Shown here piece after piece: positions 1-52,851 of a DNA stretch of 64,000 nt (the stretch's first letter is position 1; each line of letters begins with the position of its first letter). The notes under the pieces were generated by a model. The model saw only the letters and a list, made by a program, of their open reading frames with translations. It did not search any database and was not told the DNA's origin. Both the position numbers and the translations under genes were made by a program. Source of the DNA: Deltaproteobacteria bacterium (GTDB taxonomy: Bacteria > Desulfobacterota > Syntrophorhabdia > Syntrophorhabdales > Syntrophorhabdaceae); assembly GCA_029777945.1 (NCBI GenBank), contig JAKORG010000019.1:1-64000 (forward strand). Direction: 5' to 3'.

Positions 1-147
1 AGAGGCATCAACGTAGGTGTAATAAGGACAAGACTTTCAGAGTTAGGAGAGATAATATATGCGGCCCCAAGAATATTAGAAGATGGTGGGGTTGTCTTTG
101 AATTCATAGTTGCAACAGATAGTGATGAATCAGCATTTTTATCATAG
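1..147 (+). pseudogene. cheA: CheA histidine kinase, N-terminal piece ending at an in-frame TAG (window-truncated)
   Basis: Reading frame 1 is open from the window edge and ends at TAG (145-147). The peptide contains ELGEIIYAAP and VVFEFIVATDSDE, which match the end of the CheA P2/linker region. The same frame continues after the TAG with RDDGLKWKRYEIAEKI and then runs into the P3 domain at 274, so the stop lies inside what should be one cheA gene. The 5' end (Hpt domain) is outside the window. Either a nonsense mutation or a sequence error splits the kinase. A natural two-part CheA is less likely because the downstream part has no ribosome binding site. Confidence 0.75.
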
Positions 148-273
148 AGAGACGACGGCCTAAAATGGAAAAGATATGAGATTGCCGAAAAAATTAAAAG
201 GGAAAAGGAAAATGGTGGAGCTGGAGAGATAGCGGACAGCGATAAATTTCCCAGGATTTCCACAACAAATACA

Positions 274-1446
274 GTGAGGGTTGATTTAAAAAGACTTGAT
301 GAACTTATGGAGATGGTAGGTGAACTTGTTATCACAAAGGCACGGCTCGACGACATCCTGAGGGGAATCTCAAGATACATTCCAGAACAAGAACTGGATT
401 TTTTTGAAGAAACACATATGCGAATGGGAAGGCAATTGAAAAATCTTCGTGAAGGGATTATGCGTATAAGGATGGTGCCTATAGGAGAGGTCTTTGATAG
501 AATGCGGTTTGTTGTTCTGGACTTAGAGAGGGAAATGGGTAAAAAGATACACCTTGAGATTATCGGAGAAAATACGGAGATTGATAAACTCGTTGTGGAA
601 AGGATGATGGACCCTATGCTTCACCTTGTTAGAAACGCTATAAGCCACGGTATAGAAAAAGAAGAAGAGAGGATTTCTAAAGGTAAGTCAAAACAAGGGA
701 ACATAAAACTCAGTGCCCATACATCAGGGGATTCTGTGGTCATAGAAATAGAAGATGACGGAAGGGGTATCGACGCAGAAAGGATAATATCAAAGGCAAA
801 ATCAAAGGGTTTAATTAACGAGGATTTTACTTTGTCTTTTCAAGAAAGAAACAGGGAAATATTGAACATTATCTGTTCAACTGGCTTCTCAACCAGAGAA
901 AATGCAGATATGGCAAGCGGTAGAGGTCTTGGTATGACTATTGTAAAAAATGCCATAGAGACATTGGGGGATAGCTTATCCCTTGAAACAGAAAAGGATA
1001 AGGGCACACGTTTTATTATAAACCTGCCCCTTACCCTTGAAATCGTGGACGCCTTTATACTTATTGCAGGAGGACAGTTATTTGCGATACCACAGCCTTC
1101 TGTAAAGGAGGTAATAGAAATTGAACCGGAAAAAATAACGATTATGGAGAATAACGAGCTTATTTTGTACAGGGGTGAGCCTTTACCTGTAATAAGATTA
1201 AGCAGGCTCTTTAATCTTAAAGAAAACTACGGTCAGATTATATACGGGATTATTATAGGCAGAGGTTATAATTCTGTGGCAGTAATGGTGGAACAGGTAA
1301 TAACAAAAAGGGAGATAGTCATAAGACCCATAACAGATACCCTTGTAAGTGTAAAAGGTATTGGAGGCGCAACTGAATTAGGAGACGGTAAGCCCATATT
1401 GATACTTAATGCCTCTGAACTTTTGGACATGGCTATGAAAAGGTAA
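274..1446 (+). CDS. cheA: Chemotaxis histidine kinase CheA, P3-P4-P5 part
   Basis: CheA autophosphorylates on the Hpt domain and passes phosphate to CheY and CheB in the receptor array. Seen here: P3 dimerisation helices (about residues 1-65, RLDELMEMVGELVI), the P4 HATPase domain with N-box LHLVRNAISHGIE, G1 box DDGRGID and G2 box GRGLGM, and a C-terminal CheW-like P5 domain (about 255-390). The GTG at 274 is only the first in-frame start after the TAG at 145-147. It has no Shine-Dalgarno, and the frame is open upstream from 148, so the true gene starts before the window. As sequenced, the protein would lack the phosphorylatable His domain. It is first in a same-strand chain of chemosensory genes; cheW follows after 38 nt. 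Confidence 0.9.
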   Translation: MRVDLKRLDELMEMVGELVITKARLDDILRGISRYIPEQELDFFEETHMRMGRQLKNLREGIMRIRMVPIGEVFDRMRFVVLDLEREMGKKIHLEIIGENTEIDKLVVERMMDPMLHLVRNAISHGIEKEEERISKGKSKQGNIKLSAHTSGDSVVIEIEDDGRGIDAERIISKAKSKGLINEDFTLSFQERNREILNIICSTGFSTRENADMASGRGLGMTIVKNAIETLGDSLSLETEKDKGTRFIINLPLTLEIVDAFILIAGGQLFAIPQPSVKEVIEIEPEKITIMENNELILYRGEPLPVIRLSRLFNLKENYGQIIYGIIIGRGYNSVAVMVEQVITKREIVIRPITDTLVSVKGIGGATELGDGKPILILNASELLDMAMKR

Positions 1447-1484: not shown

Positions 1485-1940
1485 ATGCCCGATGACAAAG
1501 ATAAAGAAAATTATATTCTCTTTAAACTCGTAGGAACCACTTATGGAATTAAAAGCGACGATGTCAGTCAAATGGAGATGGTGGAACACATAACCCCTGT
1601 GCCCAATGCGCCAGATTTTGTGGAAGGTCTTGTGTTTTTAAGGGGTGAAGTGATCCCTGCCATAAATTTGAGGGCACGATTCGGGTTTGAAAAAATCGAA
1701 TACGATATTAAAACAAGGATCATTATTGTTCAAAAGGGTGAAAGAAAGGTAGGTCTAATCGTTGACAATGCCCGTGAATTTGTTGCCATCCCCGGTGAAG
1801 TTATTAAGCCACCACCTGAAACAATTTCAGGGTTAAGTGGACAATATCTCCAGGGTGTTGCAACAATGGGGGACAGGCTTATTTTGATATTGAACATTGA
1901 AAAGGTTTTAAACTTTACAAATATAAAAACATCTGTGTAG
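1485..1940 (+). CDS. cheW: Chemotaxis coupling protein CheW
   Basis: CheW is the adaptor that links receptors (MCPs) to CheA. The 151-residue length and the single CheW/SH3-like domain fit the family: LFKLVGTTYGIKSDDV near the start, VPNAPDFVEGLVFLRGEVIPAI around residues 38-60, and LIVDNAREFVAIPGEVI around 92-108. The start is supported by an excellent ribosome binding site (AAGGAGGTGG) about 6 nt before the ATG. It lies between cheA and the MCP gene, so kinase, adaptor and receptor are encoded together. The stop is TAG, showing that UAG is an ordinary stop codon in this genome. Confidence 0.95.
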   Translation: MPDDKDKENYILFKLVGTTYGIKSDDVSQMEMVEHITPVPNAPDFVEGLVFLRGEVIPAINLRARFGFEKIEYDIKTRIIIVQKGERKVGLIVDNAREFVAIPGEVIKPPPETISGLSGQYLQGVATMGDRLILILNIEKVLNFTNIKTSV

Positions 1941-1966: not shown

Positions 1967-2260
1967 ATGGTTGAAAAGAAAGAAAAACCAAAAGAAAGCA
2001 GTAAAAAGAATAAAGAAAAGGATGTGGTGATGACAAAAGGTTCGAACCCATTAAATTTAAGGGAACATACAGATGAAATTGTAAGGTCTGGAAATGAACT
2101 TTCAAGGATAAATGATAGGCTAAAAGAAGATGCTGAAAAACAGGTGCGTAAGCTTGATGAAACCATAAAAGGTTTAAACGAGCTCGCCTCAATTATAAAG
2201 AGACAGCTTCCCAGGTTGAATCCATTGCCTCATCTTCTGAGGAGCACACATCCTTCATAA
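1967..2260 (+). pseudogene. Methyl-accepting chemotaxis protein, N-terminal part before a frameshift
   Basis: Starts with a strong ribosome binding site (GAAGGAGGTATAAAGT) before ATG 1967. The first ~75 residues are charged and helical (many K and E, no membrane segment) and lead into [10 protein letters not shown]. At about 2197 the frame breaks: frame 2 continues as unrelated residues to a stop at 2260, while frame 1 continues the natural MCP sequence ([20 protein letters not shown], then [10 protein letters not shown]). Adding one A to the A-run at 2197-2199 would join the two frames. This segment and the next entry are therefore one gene, about 700 residues when repaired. Confidence 0.8.
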
Positions 2261-2265
2261 ACGAA

Positions 2266-4071
2266 ATGGCAGCCTCCATCGAGCAAATTACTGCAAATAT
2301 GGTGAGTTTAACTTCATCCATCAACGAGACCTCATCATCTATTACAGAGACGTCTTCATCCATTAAAAACGTAGCAGATGTGACCCAAGAAATGGTAACC
2401 TCTGCAACACAGGTAACCACTTCCATAAATGAGATTGCAAATTCCATAAGACATGTAAGCACAGAAACAGATTCCCTTGTTACCTCCATAAATGACACAG
2501 CATCCACTATCGATGAAATGGCTCAATCCATTAAGTCTGTAGCAGAAAATGCAGAAAACCTTGCCTCTGCAGCTGAAGAGACGTCATCATCCATTAACGA
2601 GATGGCAGCTTCTATCGAAGAGGTCTCTGCCACCTCTGAAAATCTTGCTGCCCTCGTGGAGCAGATATCTGCAACTATAGAACAGACTGTTCATTCTGTT
2701 CAAGGTGTTTCTACAAGCGCTGAAAAAATTAGTGAATCTGCTTCGAGCTCCGCATCTGCATCAATGCAATTAGACCGTTCGATACGCTCAATAGCCAATC
2801 TGGCAAAAACAGCAGATGAGATAACAAACCGTGCCACAAAAGACGCACAAGAAGGAGCATCTACCATTGAAAAATCCATCAAAGCACTTTTGAAGATAAA
2901 AGAAACAATGAAACAGTCTTCAACAGTAATAAGGGACATGGGCAAGCGTTCATCTGAGATAGGAAGCATTGTAAACACGATAAATCTCATCGCAGAGAGG
3001 ACGAATTTACTTTCTCTCAATGCATCCATTGAAGCAGCCCGTGCAGGTGAAGCAGGAAGGGGCTTTGCCGTTGTAGCTGAAGAGATAAGAAATCTTGCAG
3101 AGCGAGCTGCAAAGGCTACATCTGATATTGCCAGCATTATTAAGACATTTCAAGAGGTCACACAGGAGGCTGTAACAACCACCAACGAAGGCTTGAAGAT
3201 TGCAGAAGAGGGAAGTACTCTTGCTGAGGATGCAGGGAAGAGCTTAAAAAAGATACTTCTTGGCATAGAAGATGTGGCACAGCTTGTAAACCAGATATCC
3301 ACAGCCACAAACGAACAACTCACAGCAGGTCAAAATCTTGTGAATGAGGCAAGTATCACTGCCACACAAGCCAAACAGATTGCAAATGCTACCTCTGAGC
3401 AGTCAAAGGCTGTGTATGGCATGGTGCAGATAAGTGGACAGATGCGTAAGATTGCGCAGCAGGTCTCCCAGGCTATGGCTGAACAGGCAAAGGCTTCAAG
3501 GAATATAATAAAAGCAGCCCAAAACACGAATAACTACGCCGCTTCTGTGAGCAGGGCAACAAAAGAACAGGCAGATGGTGCAAACCAGATAGCCCGGGTT
3601 ATGGAAAGTATGAAAAAGAGCACGACTATTATCTCAAAGGCTATTTCCGAACAGGCAACAGCAGGAGAACAAGTCTCCCGTGAAGCTCTACGCCTTGCAA
3701 GGCTAATAGAAAATATAAACAGGGCAATGAGTGAGCAGGCAAATGCAGCAAATCAGATAGATAAAGCAGCAGAAAACATGAAAAGACAGGCAGACCAGAT
3801 AACAAAGGCAATGAGTGAGCAGTCAAGGGCAATGAAGGACACGAGCTTTGCCATAGATAATATCATAAAACAGATAAAACTCATAACAGGTGGAAACATA
3901 AAACAGTCAGAGCTTACTACAAAAATTAGCGAACTCATACTGGACATAAGGAGATTTTTCGAAAAGGATGTGGAGATTGTCCACGATTCAGAAAAAATAA
4001 TTTCAAATCTTATTGAAAAAGTTAAATCCCTTGATATATTATGGAAAAAAGGACAATCTAAATTGGGCTAA
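2266..4071 (+). CDS. Cytoplasmic methyl-accepting chemotaxis protein (main part)
   Basis: Receptor of the chemosensory array. The signalling hairpin is clear: [18 protein letters not shown] followed by [19 protein letters not shown]. No transmembrane segment or periplasmic domain is visible, so this is a soluble receptor. Long heptad-rich stretches flank the hairpin: Ser/Thr/Asn-rich repeats of the type SINE(T/M)-(A/S)SSI before it, and repeats of the type AMSEQA-x-AANQI after it. The ATG at 2266 is only the first Met in this frame; the frame is open upstream to about 2197, where a one-base deletion separates it from the true N-terminus starting at 1967. Its place after cheW supports an operon-specific receptor. 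The signal sensed is unknown. Confidence 0.9.
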
Positions 4072-4118: not shown

Positions 4119-6851
4119 ATGGCCACAATAGGTATATTTACCACGGACAAGGATTTAAAAATTACTACGTGGGATGAATGGCTCGAAGTTGCCACAGGTA
4201 TAAAAAAGTCAGAGGCAAAGGATAAACCTCTCGAGGCTATAGTGCCTGACTTAGAAGAGAGAAACATAAAAAAAAGGTTTCTAAATGTTCTTGAAAACGG
4301 TGTTGTAGAGGTATTATCCCCTGTATTTCACCATAATATTATAGATTGTAGGCCCTTAAAACCCTCCAATCTCTTTGAAAAGATGCAACAGAGGGTGACT
4401 ATCGCACCTTTAAAAGAGGACGAAACCATTGTAGGTACTATTGTTACAATAGAGGATCTCACAGAAAAAATGGAAAGGGAAAGGCAATTTTCAGAAAAAC
4501 TTAAAAGTCAAAACGAAGCCGAAAGACTCTCTGCAGCACAGTTTTTTGTTCAAGAAAAAAAGGTTGAAGATAAGGGCATTTTTAAGGATATCTTAAAGGA
4601 TGAGAGCTGGCGGGTAAGAAAGGTGGCTGTTGATGCCTTAAAAAGCAAAACAGATTTAGACACCGTTGCCACGCTCCTTAAATCATTGAAAGAGGAACAT
4701 AACAATATCAACATCCTAAATAGTGCACTCCAAATACTCACGATGAGTGAAATTGATGTTACAGATACACTTGTGAATTTTCTCATGTCAGATGACCGTG
4801 AATTAAGACAATATGCAGCCCTTGCCCTTGGTGAAATAAAAGATAAAAAAGCAATACCTTATCTTTTAAAGGCCTTAAATGACGATGATATAAATGTAAG
4901 ATATCATGTCATAGAGGCTTTAGGAAAGATGAAGGCAAAGGAGGCTGTTAGGCCCATATTAGAGATTTTGGAAACAAGGGATTTTTTTCTTGCTTTTCCT
5001 GCTATAGATGCACTGGCTAATATAGGCGATGAAAGGGCTGCGGCAAAGCTTATAGGGCTCTTAGATGATGAATTATTATCAGGTCCTGCTATAGATGCAA
5101 TGGCTGTATTGGGCAGCGAAGATACTGTGCCCTACCTCGTTCGTGCACTGGATCATGTCAATGTCAATATGGTAGTATCAATCCTAAAAGCGATTGTATC
5201 CATTTATGAACACTATAATGAAAAATACGGTGCCGGAGATATAATAGCTGATATTGTAAAGAACAGGATAAGTAGGACTGGGGCTGATAAAATAGTCAAA
5301 TCCTTAGATGGTGCATCCGATGAATCCTTGCACATTATTGCCCTAATTTTAGGATGGCTCGAAGGTGATGTAATAGATAAAGCACTCACCGGGATACTGG
5401 GAAAGACCTCTGCACGGAAAGAGATAATAGATTCCATTGTAACACACGGGCAACACATAGTTAATCTCCTTATAGACCAAGTATATTCTAAGGATATGGA
5501 GATTAAGAAATCTGCCATTATTGCATTGGGTCGTATAGGAGATAAAAGGGCAGTGTCTGCCCTTATATCCGTTCTTGACGAAGAGCCTGAACTTGCCATT
5601 ATTTCAGCAGGTGCCCTCGCAAAGATAGGGGATAGAAGTGCCTTTGAAGCACTCCTTAACCACATAGCTGATAGGGATGTAGGGGTAAGGCAGGCTGTAA
5701 TATCTGCTTTAAATTCTATAGGTCATCCTGATATGGCTGACAAGATGTTATTATTTCTAAAAGATAAAGACCCCATTGTCAGGGAATCGGCAGTAAAAAT
5801 TGCTGGATACTTTGGTTACGCTGAATGCATAGACCTTCTCATTGAAAGATGCACCGATGAAGTAGAGAATGTCCGATATGCTGCCATACAATGCCTACCC
5901 TTTCTTGAAGATAAAAGGGTGCTATCTATAATTGTTAATGCCTTGAAAAAAGACACGCCAAAGGTTAGGGCAGCGGCTGCATACGCTTTAGGACAACTTG
6001 AGGATAAGGAGGCATTTTACTATCTAAAGGATGCTATAAACGATACTGATCCCTGGGTAAGATACTTTGCTGCAAAGGCAATGGGTAATTTTAAAAACCC
6101 AGAGGCTATTGACGTATTGTTAAATGTAGTTGAAAAAGAAACTGCCGAGCATGTTCGTATATCTGCCATTGAATCAATTGGAAAGATTGGGGGTGTAAAA
6201 GCAGTATCTGTGCTGTCAGGCTTTATAAAAAGTGAAAATTTCGATGTGGCAAGGACAGCAATTAGCGGTCTTGGCACAATTAGACATCCCGATGCATTAA
6301 ACTTACTTTTATCTATGGTCCATTCAACGGATAGATTTATAAAGATTGAAACGATTAAAGCCCTTGGCTTAATGGGTGGACCAGAGGCTGTAAACACCTT
6401 AAAATGGATAGCAGCTTCAGAAGAAGATGAGGATATGGCAAGTAAGGCCATAGAATCTTTGAGCCTTATAGGAAGTAAGGATGCCGTAAAGGCGCTACTG
6501 GAGCTAACATACCATAAATCAAGAAAAAGCTTATGCATTCTTAAACTTTCCCAGTTAATGGGCAAACATATTTCGTGGATTACTGAAGGGCTGGATCACC
6601 CGAACCCCCATGTAAGAAGTGCCGTTGTAGATATTCTGGCGAGGATGAAACATCCCGATGCCACAGAGGCAATTGTAAGGGCTTTAGATGATAAAGATAC
6701 ACAGGTAAAACTTTCTGCTATAGATGCCTTAAGTTATTTAGGAAGCAGATATGGAGAAAAAAAGCTATCAAAGATGGCTTTATATGACAGCAACAAAATG
6801 ATAAGAGATGCGGCAAAAAAGGTATTAATGAAGATAAAAGGGGCATTTTGA
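4119..6851 (+). CDS. PAS domain plus long HEAT-repeat protein
   Basis: A 910-residue protein with an N-terminal PAS domain (about residues 1-115, beginning GIFTTDKDLKITTWDEWLE and ending VGTIVTIEDLTEKMER), a short helix, and then about 770 residues of HEAT/PBS-lyase-type repeats of roughly 31 residues, e.g. ALGEIKDKKAIPYLLKALND and YALGQLEDKEAFYYLKDA. There is no enzyme domain. HEAT arrays are protein-binding scaffolds, so a role in holding or tuning chemosensory partners is inferred. The PAS domain closely resembles those at the start of the GGDEF (9799) and HD-GYP (11155) proteins in this operon. The start has a GAGGTG ribosome binding site. It sits between the MCP gene and cheR. Confidence 0.85.
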   Translation: MATIGIFTTDKDLKITTWDEWLEVATGIKKSEAKDKPLEAIVPDLEERNIKKRFLNVLENGVVEVLSPVFHHNIIDCRPLKPSNLFEKMQQRVTIAPLKEDETIVGTIVTIEDLTEKMERERQFSEKLKSQNEAERLSAAQFFVQEKKVEDKGIFKDILKDESWRVRKVAVDALKSKTDLDTVATLLKSLKEEHNNINILNSALQILTMSEIDVTDTLVNFLMSDDRELRQYAALALGEIKDKKAIPYLLKALNDDDINVRYHVIEALGKMKAKEAVRPILEILETRDFFLAFPAIDALANIGDERAAAKLIGLLDDELLSGPAIDAMAVLGSEDTVPYLVRALDHVNVNMVVSILKAIVSIYEHYNEKYGAGDIIADIVKNRISRTGADKIVKSLDGASDESLHIIALILGWLEGDVIDKALTGILGKTSARKEIIDSIVTHGQHIVNLLIDQVYSKDMEIKKSAIIALGRIGDKRAVSALISVLDEEPELAIISAGALAKIGDRSAFEALLNHIADRDVGVRQAVISALNSIGHPDMADKMLLFLKDKDPIVRESAVKIAGYFGYAECIDLLIERCTDEVENVRYAAIQCLPFLEDKRVLSIIVNALKKDTPKVRAAAAYALGQLEDKEAFYYLKDAINDTDPWVRYFAAKAMGNFKNPEAIDVLLNVVEKETAEHVRISAIESIGKIGGVKAVSVLSGFIKSENFDVARTAISGLGTIRHPDALNLLLSMVHSTDRFIKIETIKALGLMGGPEAVNTLKWIAASEEDEDMASKAIESLSLIGSKDAVKALLELTYHKSRKSLCILKLSQLMGKHISWITEGLDHPNPHVRSAVVDILARMKHPDATEAIVRALDDKDTQVKLSAIDALSYLGSRYGEKKLSKMALYDSNKMIRDAAKKVLMKIKGAF

Positions 6852-6863
6852 TAAGGAGACAGG

Positions 6864-7700
6864 GTGAGATTTTACAGCGAGACCCTTGGCTTACCTGATA
6901 GTGCATTTACCCTTTTAAGGGAATTAATAAGGGAAAAGACTGGCATCTTTTATGAGGACGGAAAAAAGGACATACTCTGCGATAAACTCTCCCCCCTTGT
7001 CCTTGAAAAGGGCTTCAACTCATTCCTTGATTACTATTATTTTTTAAAATACGATGAGGAAAGCTATAGAGAATGGGAAAGGGTTTTCGATGTCTTATCT
7101 GTGCCTGAAACATATTTCTGGCGTGAAATAGACCAGATAAATGCACTGATTAATGTTATTGTGCCTGAACACCATAAAGATAGAAAAGAAGAACCTCTAA
7201 GAATATGGAGTGCTGCTTGTGCTACAGGAGAAGAACCATTAACCATAGCAATAGAAATAAACGAAACAGGTTGGTTTGAGAGATTAAACATAGAAATAAA
7301 TGGAACGGACGCAAGTAGAAAATCAATTGAGAAGGCAAGAGAGGGATTATACAGGGATAGGTCTTTCAGAAACATACCGCAAGACATAAAGGAAAAGTAT
7401 TTCTTAAAACAGGGGAATATGTTCAAGATTACAGAGGATATACACAAACGCGTAAAATTCTCTGTAGCAAATCTTTTAGAAACCCATAAGATTTACGATT
7501 TAGCAGCATCCCATGTAATCTTCTGCAGAAATGTTTTTATTTATTTTAGCGAAAATGTTATACGAAAAATAGTAAGGTTTTTTTTTGAACGTATGCCTTC
7601 GCCAGGTTATCTTTTTGTCGGTGCCGCTGAATCACTGCTTAAGATAACCAGTGACTTTCAACTAAAAGAAATAGGTGGCGCGCTTTGCTATGTTAAATGA
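6864..7700 (+). CDS. cheR: Chemotaxis protein methyltransferase CheR
   Basis: CheR methylates receptor glutamates with S-adenosylmethionine for adaptation. The 278-residue protein has the N-terminal all-helical CheR_N domain (about 1-75) and the SAM-dependent methyltransferase domain. The SAM-binding motif is RIWSAACATGEEPLTIAIEI, and the signature near the C-terminus is VIFCRNVFIYF. The GTG start at 6864 follows ATAAGGAGACAG, 12 nt after the HEAT gene stops. CheR and CheB form the adaptation pair of this cluster. There is no C-terminal pentapeptide-binding or TPR extension. Confidence 0.95.
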   Translation: MRFYSETLGLPDSAFTLLRELIREKTGIFYEDGKKDILCDKLSPLVLEKGFNSFLDYYYFLKYDEESYREWERVFDVLSVPETYFWREIDQINALINVIVPEHHKDRKEEPLRIWSAACATGEEPLTIAIEINETGWFERLNIEINGTDASRKSIEKAREGLYRDRSFRNIPQDIKEKYFLKQGNMFKITEDIHKRVKFSVANLLETHKIYDLAASHVIFCRNVFIYFSENVIRKIVRFFFERMPSPGYLFVGAAESLLKITSDFQLKEIGGALCYVK

Positions 7701-7757
7701 TTATGGCATGGTCAATGTATAAATTTGTATTAAACATAATATAAATCAGGAGGCCAA

Positions 7758-8801
7758 ATGGGCGATATCATTCGTGTGCTGGTAGTTGATGATTCTGCCT
7801 ATGTAAGAAAGGTAGTTAAACAGATACTATCGAGAAGCCCCTTTATTGAAGTAGTGGGAACTGCCAAGGATGGAGAAGAGGCATTAGAGATGGTAGAGGC
7901 ACTAAATCCCGATGTTGTAACCCTTGATTTAATCATGCCCAACCTCGATGGCGTGGAATTTTTGAAAAAACAGATGGCAAAAAAACCGATACCTGTAATA
8001 ATTTTAAGCATTGCAAGCGATACAAGCGAATTGGCATTAAAGGCACTGGATGCAGGGGCCATCGATTTTGTCCAGAAACCAACAGCCCTTGCCACAGAAA
8101 GAATTTACGAAATTGCCGAAGAGATAGTGGAGAAGGTAAGGGTCGCATCAAAAGTGCCGATGAAACAAATAATCCCCTATGTCGAAAAAAAGGAGATACC
8201 ACATCCTGTTATTTTAGAGACAAAGTCAAAAAGGGTAGATATTGTTGTAATAGGTATTTCAACAGGTGGTCCACAGGCACTGAAATTTCTTATACCACAG
8301 CTACCAAAGGATTTTCCTGTGCCCATTGCAATAGTCATCCATATGCCTGTTGGTTATACAGAAGCATTTGCAAACAAGCTTAACGAGATATCTTCAATTA
8401 CTGTTAAAGAGGCAAAGGAAGGGGATGTAGTTGAGGAAGGCACAGCCCTTATTGCACCTGCAGGGAGGCACATGACCTTTTACAGGCGTGCAGACAATGT
8501 TGTTGTGACGCACCTTGATTTAAGACCCTTTGATACGCTGCATAAACCTTCTGTGGATGTAATGTTTAGATCAGCCTCTGAGGTATTTAAAAATCGTGTC
8601 CTTGGTATAGTAATGACGGGTATGGGTTCAGACGGAAAAGAAGGTGCCGCATGGATAAAAGCACAGGGAGGAATAATATTGACCGAGGCAGAGGAGTCGT
8701 GTATTGTATACGGTATGCCAAGGTCGGTTGTGGAAGCAGGTTTAAGTGATGAAAGTTATAGTCTCGAAAAGATGATAGAAGGTATTCTAAAGAATATTTA
8801 A
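7758..8801 (+). CDS. cheB: Chemotaxis response regulator / protein-glutamate methylesterase CheB
   Basis: CheB removes methyl groups from receptor glutamates (and deamidates Gln) when phosphorylated by CheA. The receiver domain (residues 1-120) has acidic residues in VVDDSAYVRK, phospho-acceptor Asp in VVTLDLIMPNLDG, and Lys in DFVQKPT. The C-terminal methylesterase domain has the catalytic Ser in IGISTGGPQA, His in VIHMPVGYTEAFA and Asp in VMTGMGSDGKEGA. The length of 347 residues is normal. The ATG follows CAGGAGGCCAA. Confidence 0.96.
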   Translation: MGDIIRVLVVDDSAYVRKVVKQILSRSPFIEVVGTAKDGEEALEMVEALNPDVVTLDLIMPNLDGVEFLKKQMAKKPIPVIILSIASDTSELALKALDAGAIDFVQKPTALATERIYEIAEEIVEKVRVASKVPMKQIIPYVEKKEIPHPVILETKSKRVDIVVIGISTGGPQALKFLIPQLPKDFPVPIAIVIHMPVGYTEAFANKLNEISSITVKEAKEGDVVEEGTALIAPAGRHMTFYRRADNVVVTHLDLRPFDTLHKPSVDVMFRSASEVFKNRVLGIVMTGMGSDGKEGAAWIKAQGGIILTEAEESCIVYGMPRSVVEAGLSDESYSLEKMIEGILKNI

Positions 8802-8841
8802 AATCATTTTTGAGGCTTAAACTTATTTTTAAGGAGGTTAA

Positions 8842-9201
8842 ATGAAGGTTTTAATAATCGATGATTCAGCACTGGCAAGGAGGGTATTGAAAAATATTCT
8901 TGCCAATGCAAGTTATGATGTTATTGAAGCTGAAGATGGCATCACAGGCATTGAAAAGTATTTTCTTGAAAAACCTGATGTGGTCTTCCTTGACCTTACA
9001 ATGGAGGGTTTGAAGGGCATAGATGTTCTAAGGAAAATAAGGGAGATGGATAAAAATTCAAAGATTATTGTTGCCACAGCAGATATCCAGGCCGCTACAA
9101 AAGAAGAGGTTTTAAGAGAAGGTGCAATAGGATTTGTAAACAAACCCTTTTCACCTGAAAAGGTAATGGATGAGCTAAAAAAAGTTAAAAATGGGGGTTA
9201 A
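8842..9201 (+). CDS. cheY: CheY-type single-domain response regulator
   Basis: A 119-residue stand-alone receiver domain. Key residues are Asp pair in IIDDSALARR, phospho-acceptor Asp in VVFLDLTMEGLKG, Thr in IIVATADIQ and Lys in GFVNKPFSPE. It presumably carries the phosphoryl signal from CheA to an output (motor, or one of the enzymes encoded downstream). A strong ribosome binding site (TAAGGAGGTTAA) precedes the ATG. The gene directly precedes a cheC homologue, whose product usually dephosphorylates CheY-P, so the pair likely forms one signalling step. Confidence 0.93.
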   Translation: MKVLIIDDSALARRVLKNILANASYDVIEAEDGITGIEKYFLEKPDVVFLDLTMEGLKGIDVLRKIREMDKNSKIIVATADIQAATKEEVLREGAIGFVNKPFSPEKVMDELKKVKNGG

Positions 9202-9202
9202 G

Positions 9203-9799
9203 ATGATCTTGACAGACAGGCAAAGGGATTCCCTTAAGGAATTGATAAACATTGCCTTTGGCAAGGCAGTATCTTCTTTATCAGAATTAACAGGATACAG
9301 AATAGTGATAGATGTGCCAAAGATAGGTATTTATAGTATTAATGAAATTGTTCCTAACATTGAAGGTATTGTAACAGAAGAAGTTGCTACGGTCCATCAG
9401 ATCTTCACAGGACGTTTAGCAGGCGATGCCTTTCTTCTCCTTGACCAAAACGGTGCAAAGGCCTTAACGAGCCTATTAATAGATGAACAGGTAGAAACCA
9501 TAGATGTTTCTACCAAAGAGGTTTTGATAGAGGTAGGTAATATCATTCTCAATGCCTGTCTGGGCACATTCGGCAATATGCTTAATGTTCACATCACCTT
9601 TTCTGTGCCACGATTGCATCTAAGTGCCTTAAATGATATGATAAATAGCCTCATCATAGGAAAAGAAGGGATTAGATATGCACTTTTGATTACTACTCAA
9701 TTTAAATTAAAAGGCAGTGAAATAGGGGGCTACCTTGTGATAGTCCTGGGTGTAGGTTCCCTTGATAGACTCCTGGAGGAAATTGAAAAACTCGGGTAA
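9203..9799 (+). CDS. cheC: CheC-like CheY-P phosphatase
   Basis: CheC/CheX/FliY-family protein, which hydrolyses CheY-P. Two copies of the family's phosphatase signature are visible: ELINIAFGKAVSSLSELTG near the N-terminus and EVGNIILNACLGTFGNML at about residue 115-132, each with the E-x2-N core. Two candidate starts exist: ATG 9191, overlapping cheY without a ribosome binding site, and ATG 9203, with GGGGGT 5 nt upstream; the latter is chosen. A receptor deamidase (CheD), CheC's usual partner, is not present in this window. The stop TAATG overlaps the next start. Confidence 0.87.
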   Translation: MILTDRQRDSLKELINIAFGKAVSSLSELTGYRIVIDVPKIGIYSINEIVPNIEGIVTEEVATVHQIFTGRLAGDAFLLLDQNGAKALTSLLIDEQVETIDVSTKEVLIEVGNIILNACLGTFGNMLNVHITFSVPRLHLSALNDMINSLIIGKEGIRYALLITTQFKLKGSEIGGYLVIVLGVGSLDRLLEEIEKLG

Positions 9800-11139
9800 T
9801 GATTCCTATGGATTTATACGAAGAGGGTTTATCAAACTGGGTTGAAAATTTTTTATTCAAAGGTGTATTTGCCACAGACAAAAACCTCAAGATAATACTA
9901 TGGAATAGGTGGCTTGAAGAAAAAAGCGGTTTATTCTCAGAAAAGTTAATGGGGAAAAATGTCCTCGAGGTATTTCCTGAAACAATCGAAAAAAAGGCAG
10001 ATAGATATTTTTATCAGGCTTTAAACGGTGAACCAATTCTTCTTTCCCATAGATTTCATAAGTATCTTATAAAAATACCGCCAGAAAAAGATTTTTCTAA
10101 CTATTTTTCAGAGATGCAGCAGACCGTGCAAATTGCCCCTTTAATTTCAAATAACATTCTATTGGGAACAATCACCATGATAGAAGATGTGACAGAGAGG
10201 GTATACACGGAGATGCTTTTAAAGAAAAAGGCAGAGATATTAAAAGAAGCAGAGGAAGAAGCAAAAAAGGAAAGGGACCTTGCACAGCACTATTTAAATA
10301 TAGTTGGTGTAATCATTCTTATCCTCGATAAGAACGGAAACATAGAGCTTATAAACAAAAGGGGATGTGAAATCCTTGGCTATAAAAAAGAAGAACTCAT
10401 TGGAAAAAACTGGTTTGACACATTTATAGTGGATAGCGAAAAAGAAGAGGTAAAAAAAGTGTTCAAAGGTCTGATGAATGGGGATTTAGAGCCCTTTGAA
10501 GAGCATGAAAATTTTATTAAAACAAAAAGCCGCGGCATCAGGATTATCCACTGGCACAACACGATTCTAAAGGACAGTAAAGGAAAGATTACAGGGGTTT
10601 TGAGTTCAGGAGAGGATATAACAGAAAAAAAACAGCTTGAAGAAATCCTGAAATCCATGGTTATAACAGATGAATTGACAGGTCTAAACAACAGAAGAGG
10701 TTTTTTAACACTGGCAGGGCAACAGTTAAAGATAGCCCAGAGGACAGGGGAAAACATGCTTCTTTTCTTTATAGACATCGATAATATGAAATGGATAAAC
10801 GATACATTAGGACATAATGCAGGGGATATTGCATTGAAAAACACTGCAAAGATATTGAAAGAGACATACAGGGAATCGGATATTATATCGAGATTTGGAG
10901 GTGATGAATTTGCGGTTCTTGTCTTAGATACACACCCTTCTAATGCACAGGTATTAATTGAAAGGCTAAAGGAAAATATAAAAAAACAAAATGAAAAAAA
11001 CGAAAATGGATTTAAATTTTCTCTGAGTATAGGTTTTTCCATATTTAACCCTGAAAATGCAAAAAGTTTAGACGAATTAATAACAGAGGCAGATGCAATG
11101 ATGTACGAAGATAAGAAGAGAAAAAAGTATAACGAGTAA
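9799..11139 (+). CDS. PAS-PAS-GGDEF diguanylate cyclase
   Basis: Predicted to make the second messenger c-di-GMP from two GTP. An N-terminal PAS domain (about 15-130, with GVFATDKNLKIILWNRWLEE) is followed by a coiled-coil linker rich in K and E (130-165), a second PAS domain (about 165-280, ILGYKKEELIGKNWFDTF) and a GGDEF domain (about 290-446). The active-site motif is the canonical GGDEF in SRFGGDEFAVLV, so activity is expected. An RxxD inhibitory site (RESD) lies five residues upstream, suggesting product feedback. The first PAS is the operon-specific type shared with the proteins at 4119 and 11155. The start overlaps the cheC stop by one base (TAATG), indicating translational coupling. 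Confidence 0.92.
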   Translation: MIPMDLYEEGLSNWVENFLFKGVFATDKNLKIILWNRWLEEKSGLFSEKLMGKNVLEVFPETIEKKADRYFYQALNGEPILLSHRFHKYLIKIPPEKDFSNYFSEMQQTVQIAPLISNNILLGTITMIEDVTERVYTEMLLKKKAEILKEAEEEAKKERDLAQHYLNIVGVIILILDKNGNIELINKRGCEILGYKKEELIGKNWFDTFIVDSEKEEVKKVFKGLMNGDLEPFEEHENFIKTKSRGIRIIHWHNTILKDSKGKITGVLSSGEDITEKKQLEEILKSMVITDELTGLNNRRGFLTLAGQQLKIAQRTGENMLLFFIDIDNMKWINDTLGHNAGDIALKNTAKILKETYRESDIISRFGGDEFAVLVLDTHPSNAQVLIERLKENIKKQNEKNENGFKFSLSIGFSIFNPENAKSLDELITEADAMMYEDKKRKKYNE

Positions 11140-11154
11140 TAAGGATTATTGTAG

Positions 11155-13056
11155 ATGAAGGATTATGTCCTTGACTGGCTTAAAGATAATGTTAATTTTG
11201 GCATATTCACCACAGATGAGCATTTCATAATTGATGGATGGAATAGGTGGCTTGAACTAAATACAGGCATGAAGGCTGATTACATCCTGGGAAAAGGGCT
11301 TTTCGAGCTTTGGCCTACATTAAAAGATTCTTTCATCTTTGATTATTATAAAGAGGCCCTTGAAGGTAAGACATCTGTCGTTTCACAGAAGTTTCATAAA
11401 TATATAATACCTATTAAACTAAAGGAAAAAAATAATCATTATTTTACCCACATGCAGCAAAGTGGAATAATATCATCCCTTCTAAAACACGAAAAAGTGA
11501 TAGGAACTATAACCATTTTAAAGGACGTAACAGATCGTGTAATTACAGAGAAAAGGCTTGCAGAAATTGAGGAAAGATATAGAAGATTTATCGAGGCATC
11601 TCCGGACATGATTTTTTTAAAAGATGAAAATTTTCGTTATGTGCTGGCCAATAAGGCATACCTTGATTTTGTCGGTAAAGACGAAAAAGACATAATAGGT
11701 AAGACCGCCTATGAATGTATGCCAAAAGAGTTAGCGAAAAAATTCTCTGCTTCCGATAGATTGGCCTTAGAAAAAGATTCCCTTATATTAACAGAGGAAA
11801 CATCAGATGGAAAAGTTTACGAAATAAGAAAATTCCCCGTTACACTTCCCGATATGAAAAAAGGGATAGGCGGCTTTATCCACGATGTAACAGAAATAAA
11901 GGAGAACATAAACAATCTCAAAGGAGCCAGAGAAAGATTTCAACACCTAAGCTTAGTGCTTTGGTCATTACTTGAAATTAACAAACTCATAACACAAGAA
12001 AAAAACATTGAGACCCTTGTGGGAAATGTATGCAAAATTCTTGTAGAAAAAAGAAGCTACAACCATGCATTGATTTTATTGTCAGAAGGCTACGATGTTA
12101 TTGCCTCATGCAGTGCGGTCTATGATAAATCTGATATGGAAACCCTTGAAAGATCTGTCAAATACGATATACCCGATTGCTTCAAAAGGGCATTAAAAGC
12201 AAGAGACATTGTCATTGTTGACCCCTTTGTGGACTGTGTAGGATGTCCTTTGTTAAAAAATATAAGGGAAGAAAAGTGCGAATTAGTAAAGATTGAATAT
12301 AACGCCAAGATATATGGCATTTTAAATATCTCCCTTTCTACAAAGTTTATAGATAACCAGGAAGAGAAAGAGCTTTTTATGCGTGTTGCAGATGATTTAG
12401 GTTTTGCCATATACAGCATAGAACAGGAAAAAGAAAGAAAGAAGGCAGAAGAAGAACTCAAAGAAAGCTATAATAGATTAAGAAACATAATAGGGTCTGT
12501 AATTGATGTGATAAGCCTTGCCGTTGAATCAAGAGACCCTTACACTGCGGGTCACCAAAAAAGGGTTGCTAACCTTGCAAGGATAATTGCCCAAGAGATG
12601 GGGTTGAGTGCCGAACAGATTGAAAATGTCAGAATGGCAGGCACAATCCATGACCTCGGAAAGATTGCTACACCAGCAGAGATACTGAGTTCCCCAAAGA
12701 AATTGACAAACATCGAGTTTGAACTCGTAAAACAGCATCCAAAAAACGCCTACGATATATTAAAAAATATAGATTATCTAAAGACAGTGGCAGAAATTGT
12801 ATACCAGCACCATGAGAAACTTGACGGCTCCGGCTATCCAAGGGGTCTAAAAGGTGATGAGATAATGATAGAGGCAAAGATACTCTGTGTAGCCGATGTG
12901 GTGGAGGCAATAGCATCGCACCGCCCTTACAGGCCTTCCCTGGGAATAGAGGCTGCCCTTGAGGAGATTGAGAAAAATGCCGGTATTTTATACGATGAAA
13001 CAGTTGTTTATGCGTGTCTTAAGATTTTCAGGGAAAAACATTTTAGCTTTGAATAG
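11155..13056 (+). CDS. PAS-PAS-GAF-HD-GYP c-di-GMP phosphodiesterase
   Basis: 633 residues: operon-specific PAS (about 10-130, GIFTTDEHFIIDGWNRWLEL), a second PAS (about 140-250, SPDMIFLKDENFRYVLANKA), a GAF-like domain (about 270-425) and a C-terminal HD-GYP domain (about 450-625). Metal and catalytic residues are visible as AGTIHDLGKIATPAEIL and HHEKLDGSGYPRGLKGDE. HD-GYP enzymes hydrolyse c-di-GMP, opposing the GGDEF protein encoded just before it. The GAF-like region holds a Cys cluster (DCVGCPLL, EEKCELV) that might bind a metal or sense redox; this is only a guess. It is last in the chemosensory operon and is followed by a strong terminator. Confidence 0.92.
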   Translation: MKDYVLDWLKDNVNFGIFTTDEHFIIDGWNRWLELNTGMKADYILGKGLFELWPTLKDSFIFDYYKEALEGKTSVVSQKFHKYIIPIKLKEKNNHYFTHMQQSGIISSLLKHEKVIGTITILKDVTDRVITEKRLAEIEERYRRFIEASPDMIFLKDENFRYVLANKAYLDFVGKDEKDIIGKTAYECMPKELAKKFSASDRLALEKDSLILTEETSDGKVYEIRKFPVTLPDMKKGIGGFIHDVTEIKENINNLKGARERFQHLSLVLWSLLEINKLITQEKNIETLVGNVCKILVEKRSYNHALILLSEGYDVIASCSAVYDKSDMETLERSVKYDIPDCFKRALKARDIVIVDPFVDCVGCPLLKNIREEKCELVKIEYNAKIYGILNISLSTKFIDNQEEKELFMRVADDLGFAIYSIEQEKERKKAEEELKESYNRLRNIIGSVIDVISLAVESRDPYTAGHQKRVANLARIIAQEMGLSAEQIENVRMAGTIHDLGKIATPAEILSSPKKLTNIEFELVKQHPKNAYDILKNIDYLKTVAEIVYQHHEKLDGSGYPRGLKGDEIMIEAKILCVADVVEAIASHRPYRPSLGIEAALEEIEKNAGILYDETVVYACLKIFREKHFSFE

Positions 13057-13068
13057 TTTTTAATTCAT

Positions 13069-13099
13069 AAAAAAAGGGGGGAGTACCCCCCTTTTTTTT
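13069..13099. terminator. Bidirectional intrinsic terminator
   Basis: An A-run, six G, the loop AGTA, six C and a T-run form a perfect hairpin. It can work for both the + strand chemosensory operon ending at 13056 and the - strand etfA gene ending at 13098, whose stop codon lies inside the T-run. Confidence 0.93.
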
Positions 13100-14084
13100 A
13101 CTTGTTGAGTTTTGCCTTAAACTTTTCGATAAGTTTTGGTACTATCTGGGCATAATCACCTACGATGCCGAAAGTAGCTGCTTTAAAGATAGGTGCATCA
13201 GGGTCTTTATTAATGGCAACTATACAATCAGATGTCCTCATGCCAGCTAAGTGCTGGATTGCACCGGAAATACCGCATGCGATATAGATTTTAGGCTTAA
13301 CTGTTTTTCCTGTCTGGCCAACCTGGTGTTCATATGGAATCCATCCAGAATCTACTGCTGCGCGGGATGCACCCACTGCACCACCCAAAACATCGGCAAG
13401 TTGTTTTAAAAGCTCAAATCCTTCGGGTTTGCCAAGGCCCCTACCACCGGATACTATAATATCTGCCTCAACGAGGTTTACAGTTGTAGCAGCCTTTATA
13501 AATTCCAGTACCTTGGCATTAAGATCTGCCTCTGCCACTGTAAAGGACTCTTTTACTACCTCGCCCTGGTTTGCATCGTTTTTTTCAGGCATTGCAAAGG
13601 ATTTAGGTCTTACGGTTATAATCTGGGGTTTTGCCTTCTCATTAACCACGGTTACCATATAGTTTCCGCCGAATGCTGCCCTTGTCATTTTAACCTGTCC
13701 ACCTTCAACCTTCAAACCTATTGTATCTGTGCAGAGACCAAAACCGAGTAATGCCGCAGTTGCAGCTGCCACATCTGTTCCCTGGCTTGTTGCCCTAAAA
13801 AGTGCCACCTCTGGTTTATACTTGTCCAGGAGAAAGTTTGCTGCCTTTGAATACGCATCGGGTAAAAAGTTTTTATATACTGGGCCTTCTACAACAAATA
13901 CCTTTGATGCACCATAGGCAATAGCCTCTTTTGCAATGGCATCCACACTGTCTCCTATTACAAATGCACAGACATTTGAACCGAGATCTTGTGCCATTGC
14001 CTTTCCAATACCGAGTAATTCAAAAGACATAGGGGATACTGCCCCTTCTTTTTGTTCTATATAAACCCAAACATCATTAGCCAT
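13098..14084 (-). CDS. etfA: Electron transfer flavoprotein alpha subunit (set 1)
   Basis: With EtfB it forms the FAD-containing ETF that takes electrons from acyl-CoA dehydrogenases or exchanges them with NADH and ferredoxin. The 328-residue protein has the ETF N-terminal domain and the C-terminal FAD-binding domain with [46 protein letters not shown] and [11 protein letters not shown]. Ribosome binding site GGAGGAGGGACAAT precedes the ATG. It lies 18 nt after etfB and is the last gene of thiolase-crotonase-etfB-etfA. A second etfBA pair (28450-26663) has a different context, so the two sets probably serve different dehydrogenases. Confidence 0.96.
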
Positions 14085-14102
14085 TATTGTCCCTCCTCCT
14101 GG

Positions 14103-14903
14103 TTATTTTATAACTTTCATTTCTATTAGCTTTTCAGTCAATGTATTTGCAATATCTTCCACTTCACCCTTGAGTATTTCACCTGCACCTCTTGGAGGTG
14201 GCACTGCAATCTCTACAACCTTTGTTGATGCGCCATTGGATCCAACTTTAGCTGTATCTACACCTAAATCTCCAGCCTTCCATTCAGGAATAGGAATTTT
14301 TGAAGCCTTTCTGATACCCATCAGGTTAGGTAGACGGGGTTCATTAATGCCCTTGATAACAGATACTACTGCAGGTAATTTTGCCTCCACCACTTCAATT
14401 CCACCTTCAATAGCCCTTTCCACCACGATCTTTTTTGCACCGGCATCGATGGATCTTATTTTTGAAACATAAGTTAGCTGGCTGAATCCCAATATGGCTG
14501 CAAGCATTGCACCTACAACACCGGTATTACCATCTGTTGACTGTTTACCAGTAAACACAATGTCCACATCGCCTATCTTTTTTATTGCAGATGCCAGCAC
14601 ATATGCCGTTGCATAGGTATCAGAACCTGCAAATGCATCATCTGTAAGCCTGTAAACTTGATTCACCGTGAGAGCAAGGGCATTCCTCAGGACATCGTTT
14701 GCCTTTTCAGGCCCCATTGAGATTGCCACAATTTCACCATCATAATTCTCCCTTGTGAGTAATGCCTCTTCAATGGCAAACTCATCGAAAGGATTTGTAA
14801 TCGTTGCCTCCATGGCATCTCTTTTTAATGTCCCCTTAGGGATATCCCACTTGATCTCTGCTTCAGTATCAGGAACCTGTTTAATACATACGACTATCTT
14901 CAC
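14103..14903 (-). CDS. etfB: Electron transfer flavoprotein beta subunit (set 1)
   Basis: 266 residues, with the ETF beta N-terminus MKIVVCIKQVPDTEAEIKW, the nucleotide-binding loop region TGKQSTDGNTGVVGAMLA and the recognition-loop region GINEPRLPNLMGIRKA. EtfB pairs with the EtfA encoded downstream. The start has AAAGGAGGAC before the ATG. Being in an operon with thiolase and crotonase suggests a role in acyl-CoA oxidation or, in the reverse direction, butyryl-CoA-type synthesis. Whether it bifurcates electrons cannot be decided by eye. Confidence 0.96.
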   Translation of the reverse strand: MKIVVCIKQVPDTEAEIKWDIPKGTLKRDAMEATITNPFDEFAIEEALLTRENYDGEIVAISMGPEKANDVLRNALALTVNQVYRLTDDAFAGSDTYATAYVLASAIKKIGDVDIVFTGKQSTDGNTGVVGAMLAAILGFSQLTYVSKIRSIDAGAKKIVVERAIEGGIEVVEAKLPAVVSVIKGINEPRLPNLMGIRKASKIPIPEWKAGDLGVDTAKVGSNGASTKVVEIAVPPPRGAGEILKGEVEDIANTLTEKLIEMKVIK

Positions 14904-26662: not shown

Positions 26663-27643
26663 TTACCCCTCTTTTTTTGCTGCCATTAATTCTTCTTTCA
26701 AGGCCGGCAAAACATTAAACAGGTCATCTACTATCCCGTAATCTGCATATTGAAAGATAAGGGCATTAGGGTCTTTATTTATGGCAACTACCACTTTTGA
26801 TGTATCCATACTCATGGTATGGTGTAATGCCCCTGAAACACCGCATCCAATGTATAGCTTAGGCGATACTGTTTTTCCACTCTTCCCAATCTGATCTTCG
26901 TAGTCACGCCACTTACTGTCCACAACGGCACGAGATGCACCAACCCTTGCGCCAATTATATCTGCAATCTCTTCGAGTATCTTAAAATTTTCAGGATCTT
27001 TCATGCCCCTGCCACCACATATTATAAAATCTGCCTCCTGTAAATCTACCTTTTCAGATTGGCCTTTTGTGATATTTACTAAATGCATTCTTTTATCCGG
27101 TACTGCATTGATCTTTTCCTCTATTACCTCACCAGTTCTATTGCCCTTTTCTATGGAGAAAGAATTGGGTCTAAATGTAATTATTACCTTATCTGTACTT
27201 TTTGGAGAAACCCATGAAATTATCTTTCCTCCATATATAGGCTTTTTTACTTTTAATTCACCATCAATAATCTCAATACCCGTTGCATCTGATATAAAAG
27301 CAGCGCCAATCCTGGCCGTAAGTCTTGGGAATAGGTCTTTCCCCGTTATTGTAGATGCACCTATTATAAGAAATGGTGAATATTTTTTAGTAATAAACTC
27401 TAATGCATCAGTATATGTATCCCATCTATAATCCTTATATACTTCTCCGTCTATAATAATGACTTTTTCTTCATAGGGTCTTATATCCTCTGCAAGGTTT
27501 ATAACATTATCACCTATGAGAACTGCCAGTAGATTCGATAACAATTTATCTGTCAGTTCCCTTCCTTTTGTTAAAAGTTCGAAACTCGTCTTCCTTATTT
27601 TTCCTTCTTTACACTCAATAAATACGCATATATCCTTGCCCAT
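26663..27643 (-). CDS. fixB: Electron transfer flavoprotein alpha subunit (set 2, FixB-like)
   Basis: A 326-residue EtfA/FixB protein. FAD-domain motifs: CGGRGMKDPENFKIL, GASRAVVDSKW, DQIGKSGKTVSPKLYIGCGV and AINKDPNALIFQ. It clearly diverges from the set-1 EtfA at 13098, so the two are not a recent duplication. AAGGAGATTATAT precedes the ATG. It sits between etfB and fixC, matching the fixABCX order. Confidence 0.94.
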   Translation of the reverse strand: MGKDICVFIECKEGKIRKTSFELLTKGRELTDKLLSNLLAVLIGDNVINLAEDIRPYEEKVIIIDGEVYKDYRWDTYTDALEFITKKYSPFLIIGASTITGKDLFPRLTARIGAAFISDATGIEIIDGELKVKKPIYGGKIISWVSPKSTDKVIITFRPNSFSIEKGNRTGEVIEEKINAVPDKRMHLVNITKGQSEKVDLQEADFIICGGRGMKDPENFKILEEIADIIGARVGASRAVVDSKWRDYEDQIGKSGKTVSPKLYIGCGVSGALHHTMSMDTSKVVVAINKDPNALIFQYADYGIVDDLFNVLPALKEELMAAKKEG

Positions 27644-27658
27644 ATATAATCTCCTTAT

Positions 27659-28450
27659 CTATAAAACTTTTGCCTCTTCCTTTAGTAGTTTTACCAGTTT
27701 CTTTGCCTTGTCCTGCGGTGTTTCACCATCTATTATCTTAACAGGTGGCCTTGCCTTCGGTGTTTCATAAAATAATACCCCGATCTTTGAGGCGCCATTG
27801 TTTAGCTCTTCTTTTTGAAAGCCCAAAGTCAACGGGTCCAGAATGGGTATATTTGCCTTCATAGCCTTCATAACCCCTGTGATTAAAGGCACCCTCGGTT
27901 CATTTATGCCTTTTTGTGTGGTAAAAAGGGCAGGTAATTCCACCTCAAAGGTCTGCCTTGCCCCTTCTAAATCCCTTTCCACTATCATGTGTTTTTCGTC
28001 TTTAACATCGAGTTTCATTATGGCGCTTATATGGGGTATATTTAAAAATTCGGCCACCATAGGGCCTATTGCTCCGTTTTCGTCGTCTATTGCCTGTCTT
28101 CCACATAAAATGATGTCAAAACCTTCTTTTTTTGCAAAACCTGCTAAAATCTTTGCCGTAATTAGAGGGTCTTCTGTATCCATATCTGTATTATCAATTA
28201 GATATGCCTGGTCAGCACCCATGGCTATGGCAGTGCGCAGCGCTTCTATTGCCTTTTTTCCACCGCATGTGCAAACAATAATTTTAGATTCCTTCAATTT
28301 TGTCTTTAACCTTATGGCCTCTTCTACTGCGAACTCATCGAAAAAGTTGAGATTGTACTTATTTTCAATCTCCAGCGACTTATTGTCGCTTTTAATCAAT
28401 ATCCTTGCCTCAGTGTCTGCAACCTGTTTTACAAAAACGAGTATGTTCAA
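27659..28450 (-). CDS. fixA: Electron transfer flavoprotein beta subunit (set 2, FixA-like)
   Basis: A 263-residue EtfB/FixA protein: MNILVFVKQVADTEARI start, nucleotide-binding region CGRQAIDDENGAIGPMVAEF, and the recognition-loop region GINEPRVPLITGVMKAM. It pairs with the downstream EtfA. AGGGAGGTAATGTTTTGAAC supports the start. Third-to-last partners fixC and fixX follow in order, so this ETF is likely quinone-linked, unlike set 1. Confidence 0.94.
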   Translation of the reverse strand: MNILVFVKQVADTEARILIKSDNKSLEIENKYNLNFFDEFAVEEAIRLKTKLKESKIIVCTCGGKKAIEALRTAIAMGADQAYLIDNTDMDTEDPLITAKILAGFAKKEGFDIILCGRQAIDDENGAIGPMVAEFLNIPHISAIMKLDVKDEKHMIVERDLEGARQTFEVELPALFTTQKGINEPRVPLITGVMKAMKANIPILDPLTLGFQKEELNNGASKIGVLFYETPKARPPVKIIDGETPQDKAKKLVKLLKEEAKVL

Positions 28451-52380: not shown

Positions 52381-52851
52381 TTAATGTTCGAGTATTGATA
52401 GTAGATTATCTGTCTCTGCAAGTAAATTTTCTTTTTCCTTGTTTAATATATAGCTTTCAGAAGATATAACCTCATCTCTGTAATAAAAGAATCTATCCGC
52501 TTCCTGGATGAACTTTAAGATATAATAAGATGTATCGTTTGTAATTTCGTGACTGTGATGGTGTTTTATGACGCGTAAAAAGATTTCGGGCAGTTTCCAT
52601 TTTAATCCTAATATATAACCTGTTTCCTGATGGTCTATGCCGAATGTATCTTTTTCCATATCAGCTAAGGATTCTCTCTTTAATTTAGCCTCTTCTATTA
52701 GCTTTCCATACCATTCGATATGCATGAAAAAAACGATTTTACCTATATCGTGGAGAAGGGACAGGGTAAACGCCTCTTCTTGCTCTTCAATACCCATCTT
52801 CTGTAAGAGTAAACGTGTTGATAATGCAACAAAGAGAGAGTGATCTAACAT
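52381..52851 (-). pseudogene. HDOD domain protein, C-terminal part after a frameshift
   Basis: The C-terminal half of an HDOD domain: MLDHSLFVALSTRLLLQKMG, then LSLLHDIGKIVFFMH with an HD pair. It follows the fragment at 52845-53192 but in another frame. Restoring one A in the A6 run (T6 at 52866-52871 on the + strand) gives a continuous HFKKTSLHYMLDHSLF. Repaired, the protein is about 270 residues, a normal HDOD signalling protein. Confidence 0.8.

Follow-up and report, generated by a model that had tools for sequence, protein, structure and literature searches.

Known systems that lead from CheA to c-di-GMP are classed as ACF or TFP (PMC8846402). In the ACF system Wsp of Pseudomonas, a CheA-type kinase, CheW, an MCP, CheR, CheB and a diguanylate cyclase are encoded in a cluster, and the output is c-di-GMP and not the motor (PMC8846402). 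The locus analysed here resembles Wsp in this gene content, with CheA, CheW, MCP, CheR and CheB all in one cluster, and in its predicted output. However, WspR is a direct phosphorylation target with a receiver domain of its own, whereas the output enzymes of our locus have no receiver domain. Its CheR is free of a WspC-type TPR fusion, and it adds CheY, CheC, HD-GYP enzymes, a PAS-HEAT protein and a particular PAS subtype.

An output enzyme without a receiver is known from P. aeruginosa, where the PAS-bearing phosphodiesterase Pch is CheA-dependent and a receiver-type adaptor yet to be identified has been postulated for it (PMC3861689). Our locus also encodes PAS-bearing c-di-GMP enzymes that lack a receiver, but Pch is an EAL enzyme of a flagellar system, and the account of it in PMC3861689 mentions no linked CheY-CheC-PAS module.

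HEAT-repeat proteins have likewise been found in chemosensory systems. OE2401F acts with che proteins in Halobacterium (PMC2666748), and Cpc7, the HEAT protein of Myxococcus Che7, is reported to bind the single-domain CheY7, according to the account in PMC11514114, which cites Darnell 2014. The Che7 system of Myxococcus xanthus and our locus thus share a HEAT-repeat protein within a che system. Compared by description and not by sequence, Che7 differs from it in that the PAS-HEAT fusion and the linked c-di-GMP enzymes are features of our locus. The Geobacter beta group is listed with cheA, cheW, cheB and cheR and without mcp (PMC2577667), whereas our locus includes an MCP gene at 1967-4071. 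Finally, the CheC of our locus shares its family and both phosphatase motifs with CheC of Bacillus subtilis and Thermotoga maritima, but has CheY on one side and a PAS output protein on the other, or occurs fused as CheY-CheC.

Organization and state of the chemosensory cluster

The window, i.e., the whole stretch of 64,000 nucleotides that was analysed, corresponds to bases 1-64000 of contig C65 in a 2.4-Mb Syntrophorhabdaceae MAG (102 contigs, 97% complete). The nearest named relatives are the Syntrophorhabdaceae MAGs SKW35 and SKW285, whose HEAT protein is 69-71% identical to that of the window. All genes that the preliminary description had listed for positions 4119-13056 were found there as open frames, and the operon it had recognized, with CheA/W/R/B/Y/C and a receptor, is present as a complete CheA/W/MCP/R/B/Y/C set in one cluster. 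The genes lie on the same strand and overlap or are closely spaced:

1-1446, forward strand: CheA, C-terminal two thirds (dimerisation, ATPase and CheW-like domains); 74% identical to the intact CheA (669 aa) from the sibling genome G001
1485-1940, forward strand: CheW (PF01584, E 3e-32)
1967-4071, forward strand: chemoreceptor (MCP) in which no input domain or HAMP was recognised (PF00015, E 1e-44)
4119-6851, forward strand: PAS-HEAT protein, 910 aa; PAS at residues ~1-125, HEAT repeats from there to the end (Pfam matches given below)
6864-7700, forward strand: CheR methyltransferase, CheR_N and CheR domains only (PF01739, E 8e-47)
7758-8801, forward strand: CheB methylesterase with receiver (PF01339, E 4e-60; PF00072)
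8842-9201, forward strand: CheY, single receiver domain (PF00072, E 8e-27)
9191-9799, forward strand: CheC-family phosphatase with two D-x3-E-x2-N-x22-P sites (CheX/CheC Pfam, motifs, T. maritima CheC match)
9799-11139, forward strand: PAS-PAS-GGDEF diguanylate cyclase, 446 aa; first PAS of the shared subtype (PF00990, E 5.5e-41)
11155-13056, forward strand: PAS-PAS-(unassigned 255-435)-HD-GYP phosphodiesterase, 633 aa; first PAS of the shared subtype (PF13487, E 5.8e-43)

In the PAS-HEAT protein, PF13646 matched in 14 stretches, together with PF03130 and PF02985, and the PAS domain was assigned by alignment and single-sequence matches. The MCP is probably cytoplasmic, as it shows no recognised input domain or HAMP. 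The GGDEF motif and the RxxD I-site are intact in three orthologues of the cyclase, which scores best of the six GGDEF matches in the genome and in which a Pfam search for a Response_reg domain found none. The metal and catalytic motifs HD and GYP are intact in the 633-aa protein and in a 473-aa HD-GYP protein in every genome that carries them.

The 473-aa protein belongs to an upstream part of the cluster that the preliminary description had missed. The N-terminal part of CheA with the Hpt motif lies at the end of contig C52, and the last 23 bases of C52 are identical to the first 23 of the window, an exact overlap inside cheA. Two sibling MAGs have the entire cluster on a single contig (L036 in G001; L037 and L038, with identical layout, in G002). 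In G001, a CheY-CheC fusion (328 aa), a PAS-PAS-HD-GYP protein (473 aa), a HisKA_3 kinase, a NarL-type regulator and a double receiver are followed by CheA, CheW, MCP, PAS-HEAT, CheR, CheB, CheY, CheC, PAS-PAS-GGDEF and the 633-aa HD-GYP protein. The first four upstream genes form a unit without an adjoining CheA in G012, and a partial one in G197. The full gene set is known from only three MAGs in two genera, and the 633-aa HD-GYP gene, present in the window's genome (G000) and G001, is missing from one of the three, G002. The histidine kinase of the upstream module (L039, 10218-10937) has 239 aa here, compared with 385 aa in each of the two siblings; the PAS part at its N terminus is missing or out of frame.

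The window copy contains two interruptions. An in-frame TAG at 145-147 in cheA stands where the sibling has Trp, and a one-base frameshift near 2197 divides the MCP gene into frames of 97 and 601 aa, whereas the siblings have intact genes of 699 and 703 aa. Neither sibling has an interrupted cheA. Unless the TAG and the frameshift are sequence errors, the window copy may be non-working in this strain. Taken by themselves, the two interruptions would suit a decaying operon, which we regard as improbable because the frames are otherwise intact and dN (~0.10-0.21) is far below dS (>1.4, saturated) in all genes compared, including cheA and MCP but excepting CheY, for which dS could not be estimated. 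This pattern shows purifying selection. Long-standing decay is therefore unlikely by these substitution rates, and errors or a recent change are possible. Two more genes in the window appear split, at 52381-53192 (HDOD-type) and at 55549-56875 (adjacent overlapping frames), which suggests sequence errors in the assembly.

A PAS subtype linked to CheY and CheC

The HEAT, GGDEF and HD-GYP proteins had been described as sharing one type of PAS domain, and in our alignment the marks named for it are present in all three. A search of the window's own genome with the HEAT protein alone returned three PAS matches and no others, namely the GGDEF protein (38% identity, E 7e-19), the 633-aa HD-GYP protein (31%, E 3e-14) and the 473-aa PAS-HD-GYP protein on C52 (29%, E 3e-4). 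With a profile of the three window PAS domains, the next match was again the 473-aa protein (E 2e-10), the remaining PAS domains of the genome reaching E 4e-4 at best. The subtype accounts for four of the ~61 PAS matches genome-wide. PAS enzymes and a HEAT protein thus do occur in one cluster, as the "three outputs" of the preliminary description had it, but the PAS proteins number four, the 473-aa protein being the fourth.

In a tree of 69 PAS domains, 30 of them other PAS domains from the same genome, the four cluster domains grouped with phylum-wide kin and apart from those 30 (support 88/91, 89% of bootstraps), so that they form part of one supported subtype and do not fall into unrelated clades. 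The earlier view of the three as recent relatives does not hold, since the copies are 31-38% identical and each ortholog group is older than the split of the two genera; orthologues from the window and G001 are 63-74% identical within the PAS domain. In the tree, the GGDEF/HD-GYP copies are separated from the HEAT copy by PAS domains from other families: the PAS domains of the GGDEF and 633-aa HD-GYP proteins cluster with those of G313, G116 and G270, which belong to other families (99/94), and the PAS domain of the HEAT protein is nearer to the 473-aa group (91/90, weak). A single clade of the window trio was neither recovered nor rejected (AU p 0.37). The tree and the low identity rule out a recent duplication of the trio, and the kinship of the cluster's PAS domains is real but old.

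The product of 9191-9799, a predicted CheY~P phosphatase, is CheC rather than CheX, because both halves contain the motif D-x3-E-x2-N-x22-P and because it matches T. maritima CheC (1xkr, E 3.5e-27; CheX 3hzh gave E 0.013). Across 11 sequences, E17, N20, P43, E114, N117 and P140 are invariant and D13 is nearly so.

Searching 395 genomes of the phylum with a profile of the PAS subtype (E <= 1e-12) yielded 35 matches, of which 29 come from genomes other than G000 and G002, in genera other than the two that hold the cluster. A CheC profile run on these 395 genomes detected a CheC gene within ~1.3 kb on the same strand at 24 of the 29; among the remaining five, one (G036) is 60 bp short of a contig end and three have the weakest scores. 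Of 23 loci checked for CheY, 22 had it as well. The best 27 CheC matches all adjoin a PAS domain of the subtype, with the caveat that some of them had been used to build the CheC profile. The outputs that follow CheY-CheC vary, being mostly PAS-GGDEF but also PAS-HD-GYP (G012), PAS-PAS-kinase-receiver (G313) or PAS alone (G234). Simpler versions consist of three genes, CheY-CheC-PAS-GGDEF, and cheA does not adjoin most of the PAS-CheC modules read, G240 being an exception.

Distance matrices of PAS, CheC and CheY are correlated (Mantel r 0.87-0.89; 0 of 2000 permutations as high). Such a correlation speaks for co-inheritance and not for contact, and shared descent of neighbouring genes contributes to it. 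The CheC tree mirrors the PAS groups, with the copy of the cyclase module next to those of G313 and G116 and the copy of the 473-aa module next to those of G012 and G197, and this agreement holds where one genome has two modules as well as for a different module in G010, a member of the window's own family. Homologues scattered without che genes would have spoken against the proposed switch; instead, the subtype tracks CheY-CheC through the phylum. A literature search, mainly of freely accessible papers, found no description of the CheC-PAS-GGDEF module, and the co-travelling of this PAS subtype with CheY and CheC across the phylum appears to be a new element.

Four residues conserved in the subtype, W35, W38, H87 and Q108 (numbering of the GGDEF protein), are atypical of PAS domains in general. 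Among the nearest folds in a search with a PAS model were PAS domains that bind flavin (LOV, NifL) or haem (DosP), and a ligand assignment on this basis was dropped, as the matches are generic (TM ~0.5-0.7, identity <=20%). The PAS domains could each sense, in parallel, a common small ligand or redox cofactor, with CheY and CheC serving the CheA branch only and the linkage reflecting a shared task. We consider this reading rather unlikely: PAS domains usually sense ligands, the four residues could line a pocket and flavin and haem PAS domains are among the nearest folds, but the generic nature of these matches weakens the last point, and a ligand alone leaves unexplained why CheY and CheC are tracked across differing outputs.

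HEAT proteins and the CheA core

HEAT proteins are common in che operons of the phylum, besides being known from Myxococcus (Cpc7) and haloarchaea, and we rejected HEAT as a new element of the cluster for this wide occurrence in the phylum's che operons. In this genome and at 15 related loci, the flagellar operon encodes a HEAT protein that has no PAS and is situated between CheB and CheR. Throughout the order, the flagellar-operon HEAT protein between cheB and cheR has ~610-670 aa (L035 6483-8321, L041 8380-10287, L042 8032-9879 and 12 or more others).

The nearest relatives of CheA outside the two genera, taken at E 1e-78, show 29-34% identity over the full length. Around the related CheA genes, the HEAT gene directly precedes CheR, followed by CheB where the stretch extends so far, in seven out of ten loci, and the window HEAT protein matches the HEAT proteins of these loci with E 1e-22 to 1e-52. 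The HEAT-type che clusters of Desulfobacterota (CheA-CheW-CheW-...-HEAT-CheR-CheB) thus share with the window the HEAT-CheR-CheB order and the nearest CheA kin, but their HEAT protein lacks PAS, and the stretches read contain no CheC or c-di-GMP enzyme of this kind. Judging from the description in the text of PMC2577667, they probably overlap with the Geobacter beta group. Four HEAT-type clusters (L164, L166, L167, L169) additionally encode a DUF4388 protein, which in some cases has a receiver. In three of these, an AAA ATPase gene is found between cheA and cheW; the Pfam check of both proteins covered L164.

A PAS-HEAT protein was not found outside the three genomes in the subtype search within the phylum (395 genomes); the absence elsewhere rests on this search, as a contig scan with the PAS-HEAT alignment reached close relatives only (two MAGs). 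From these comparisons, HEAT-CheR-CheB is a separate, old che arrangement in the phylum, and PAS-HEAT is a fusion that ties this arrangement to the CheY-CheC-PAS module. Together with the linkage of PAS, CheC and CheY, this makes the window a combination of two modules: one is a CheA core of the HEAT type, the other an output module of CheY, CheC and PAS, and the PAS is also fused to HEAT.

A proposed c-di-GMP output of the cluster

The genome has CheW domains at four places, which represent one CheA and one CheW in each of two systems, and the other system belongs to the flagellar operon on C35. The absence of flagellar genes nearby had been noted in the preliminary description, and our analysis recognised none there either. 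The flagellar che operon on C35 is separate. Alternatively, the cluster could serve flagellar chemotaxis, with CheY acting on the motor and the c-di-GMP enzymes as accessories. Such a role would fit the flagellar operon and further MCPs of this genome and the CheY-CheC-PAS-GGDEF-CheA set of G240, which lies near flagellar-type genes. This seems to us a very doubtful explanation of the cluster, given that the C35 operon has its own CheA, CheY, CheR, CheB and HEAT protein and that the surroundings of the cluster are free of recognised flagellar genes.

We think the chances slightly favour a second chemosensory system of non-flagellar type, in which CheY~P/CheC sets the c-di-GMP level by acting on receiver-less PAS proteins. 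In such a system, the receptor and CheW would control CheA, which would phosphorylate CheY, and the two-site CheC would take the phosphate off CheY~P, with CheR and CheB adapting the receptor. Because the output enzymes lack a receiver domain, they would be reached either by contact with CheY~P/CheC or by parallel regulation, and the co-inheritance of PAS with CheY and CheC leads us to favour contact at the PAS domain. CheY~P, or the balance of CheY~P and CheC, would thus most likely act on the output enzymes via their shared N-terminal PAS, and cyclase and HD-GYP activities would be raised or lowered in coordination. PAS-HEAT is the non-catalytic member of this set, and its most likely role is to connect the PAS enzymes with the CheA/CheR/CheB array. 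The CheA-controlled c-di-GMP switch suggested earlier is plausible in view of the intact motifs, the full che set and the separate flagellar operon; its basis is gene linkage, which is silent on which partner touches which, and the partners are predictions.

More tentatively, reading out the CheY~P/CheC state could be the dedicated function of the PAS subtype throughout the phylum, which would make it an unrecognised class of CheY target that drives receiver-less outputs (cyclase, phosphodiesterase, kinase and HEAT scaffold); we offer this as a possibility that has the odds against it. If true, a chemotaxis-type kinase could drive many different receiver-less outputs across the phylum. How CheA controls receiver-less c-di-GMP enzymes is the question raised for Pch (PMC3861689), and the PAS subtype, found on four different proteins of one operon and co-inherited with CheY and CheC, is a concrete candidate for the missing link.

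Downstream of the cluster, the window contains two EtfA/EtfB-like gene pairs (13098-14903 and 26663-28450), one of them near enoyl-CoA hydratase-like and thiolase-like genes. Identified by eye, these pairs and their neighbours are compatible with syntrophic acyl-CoA metabolism.
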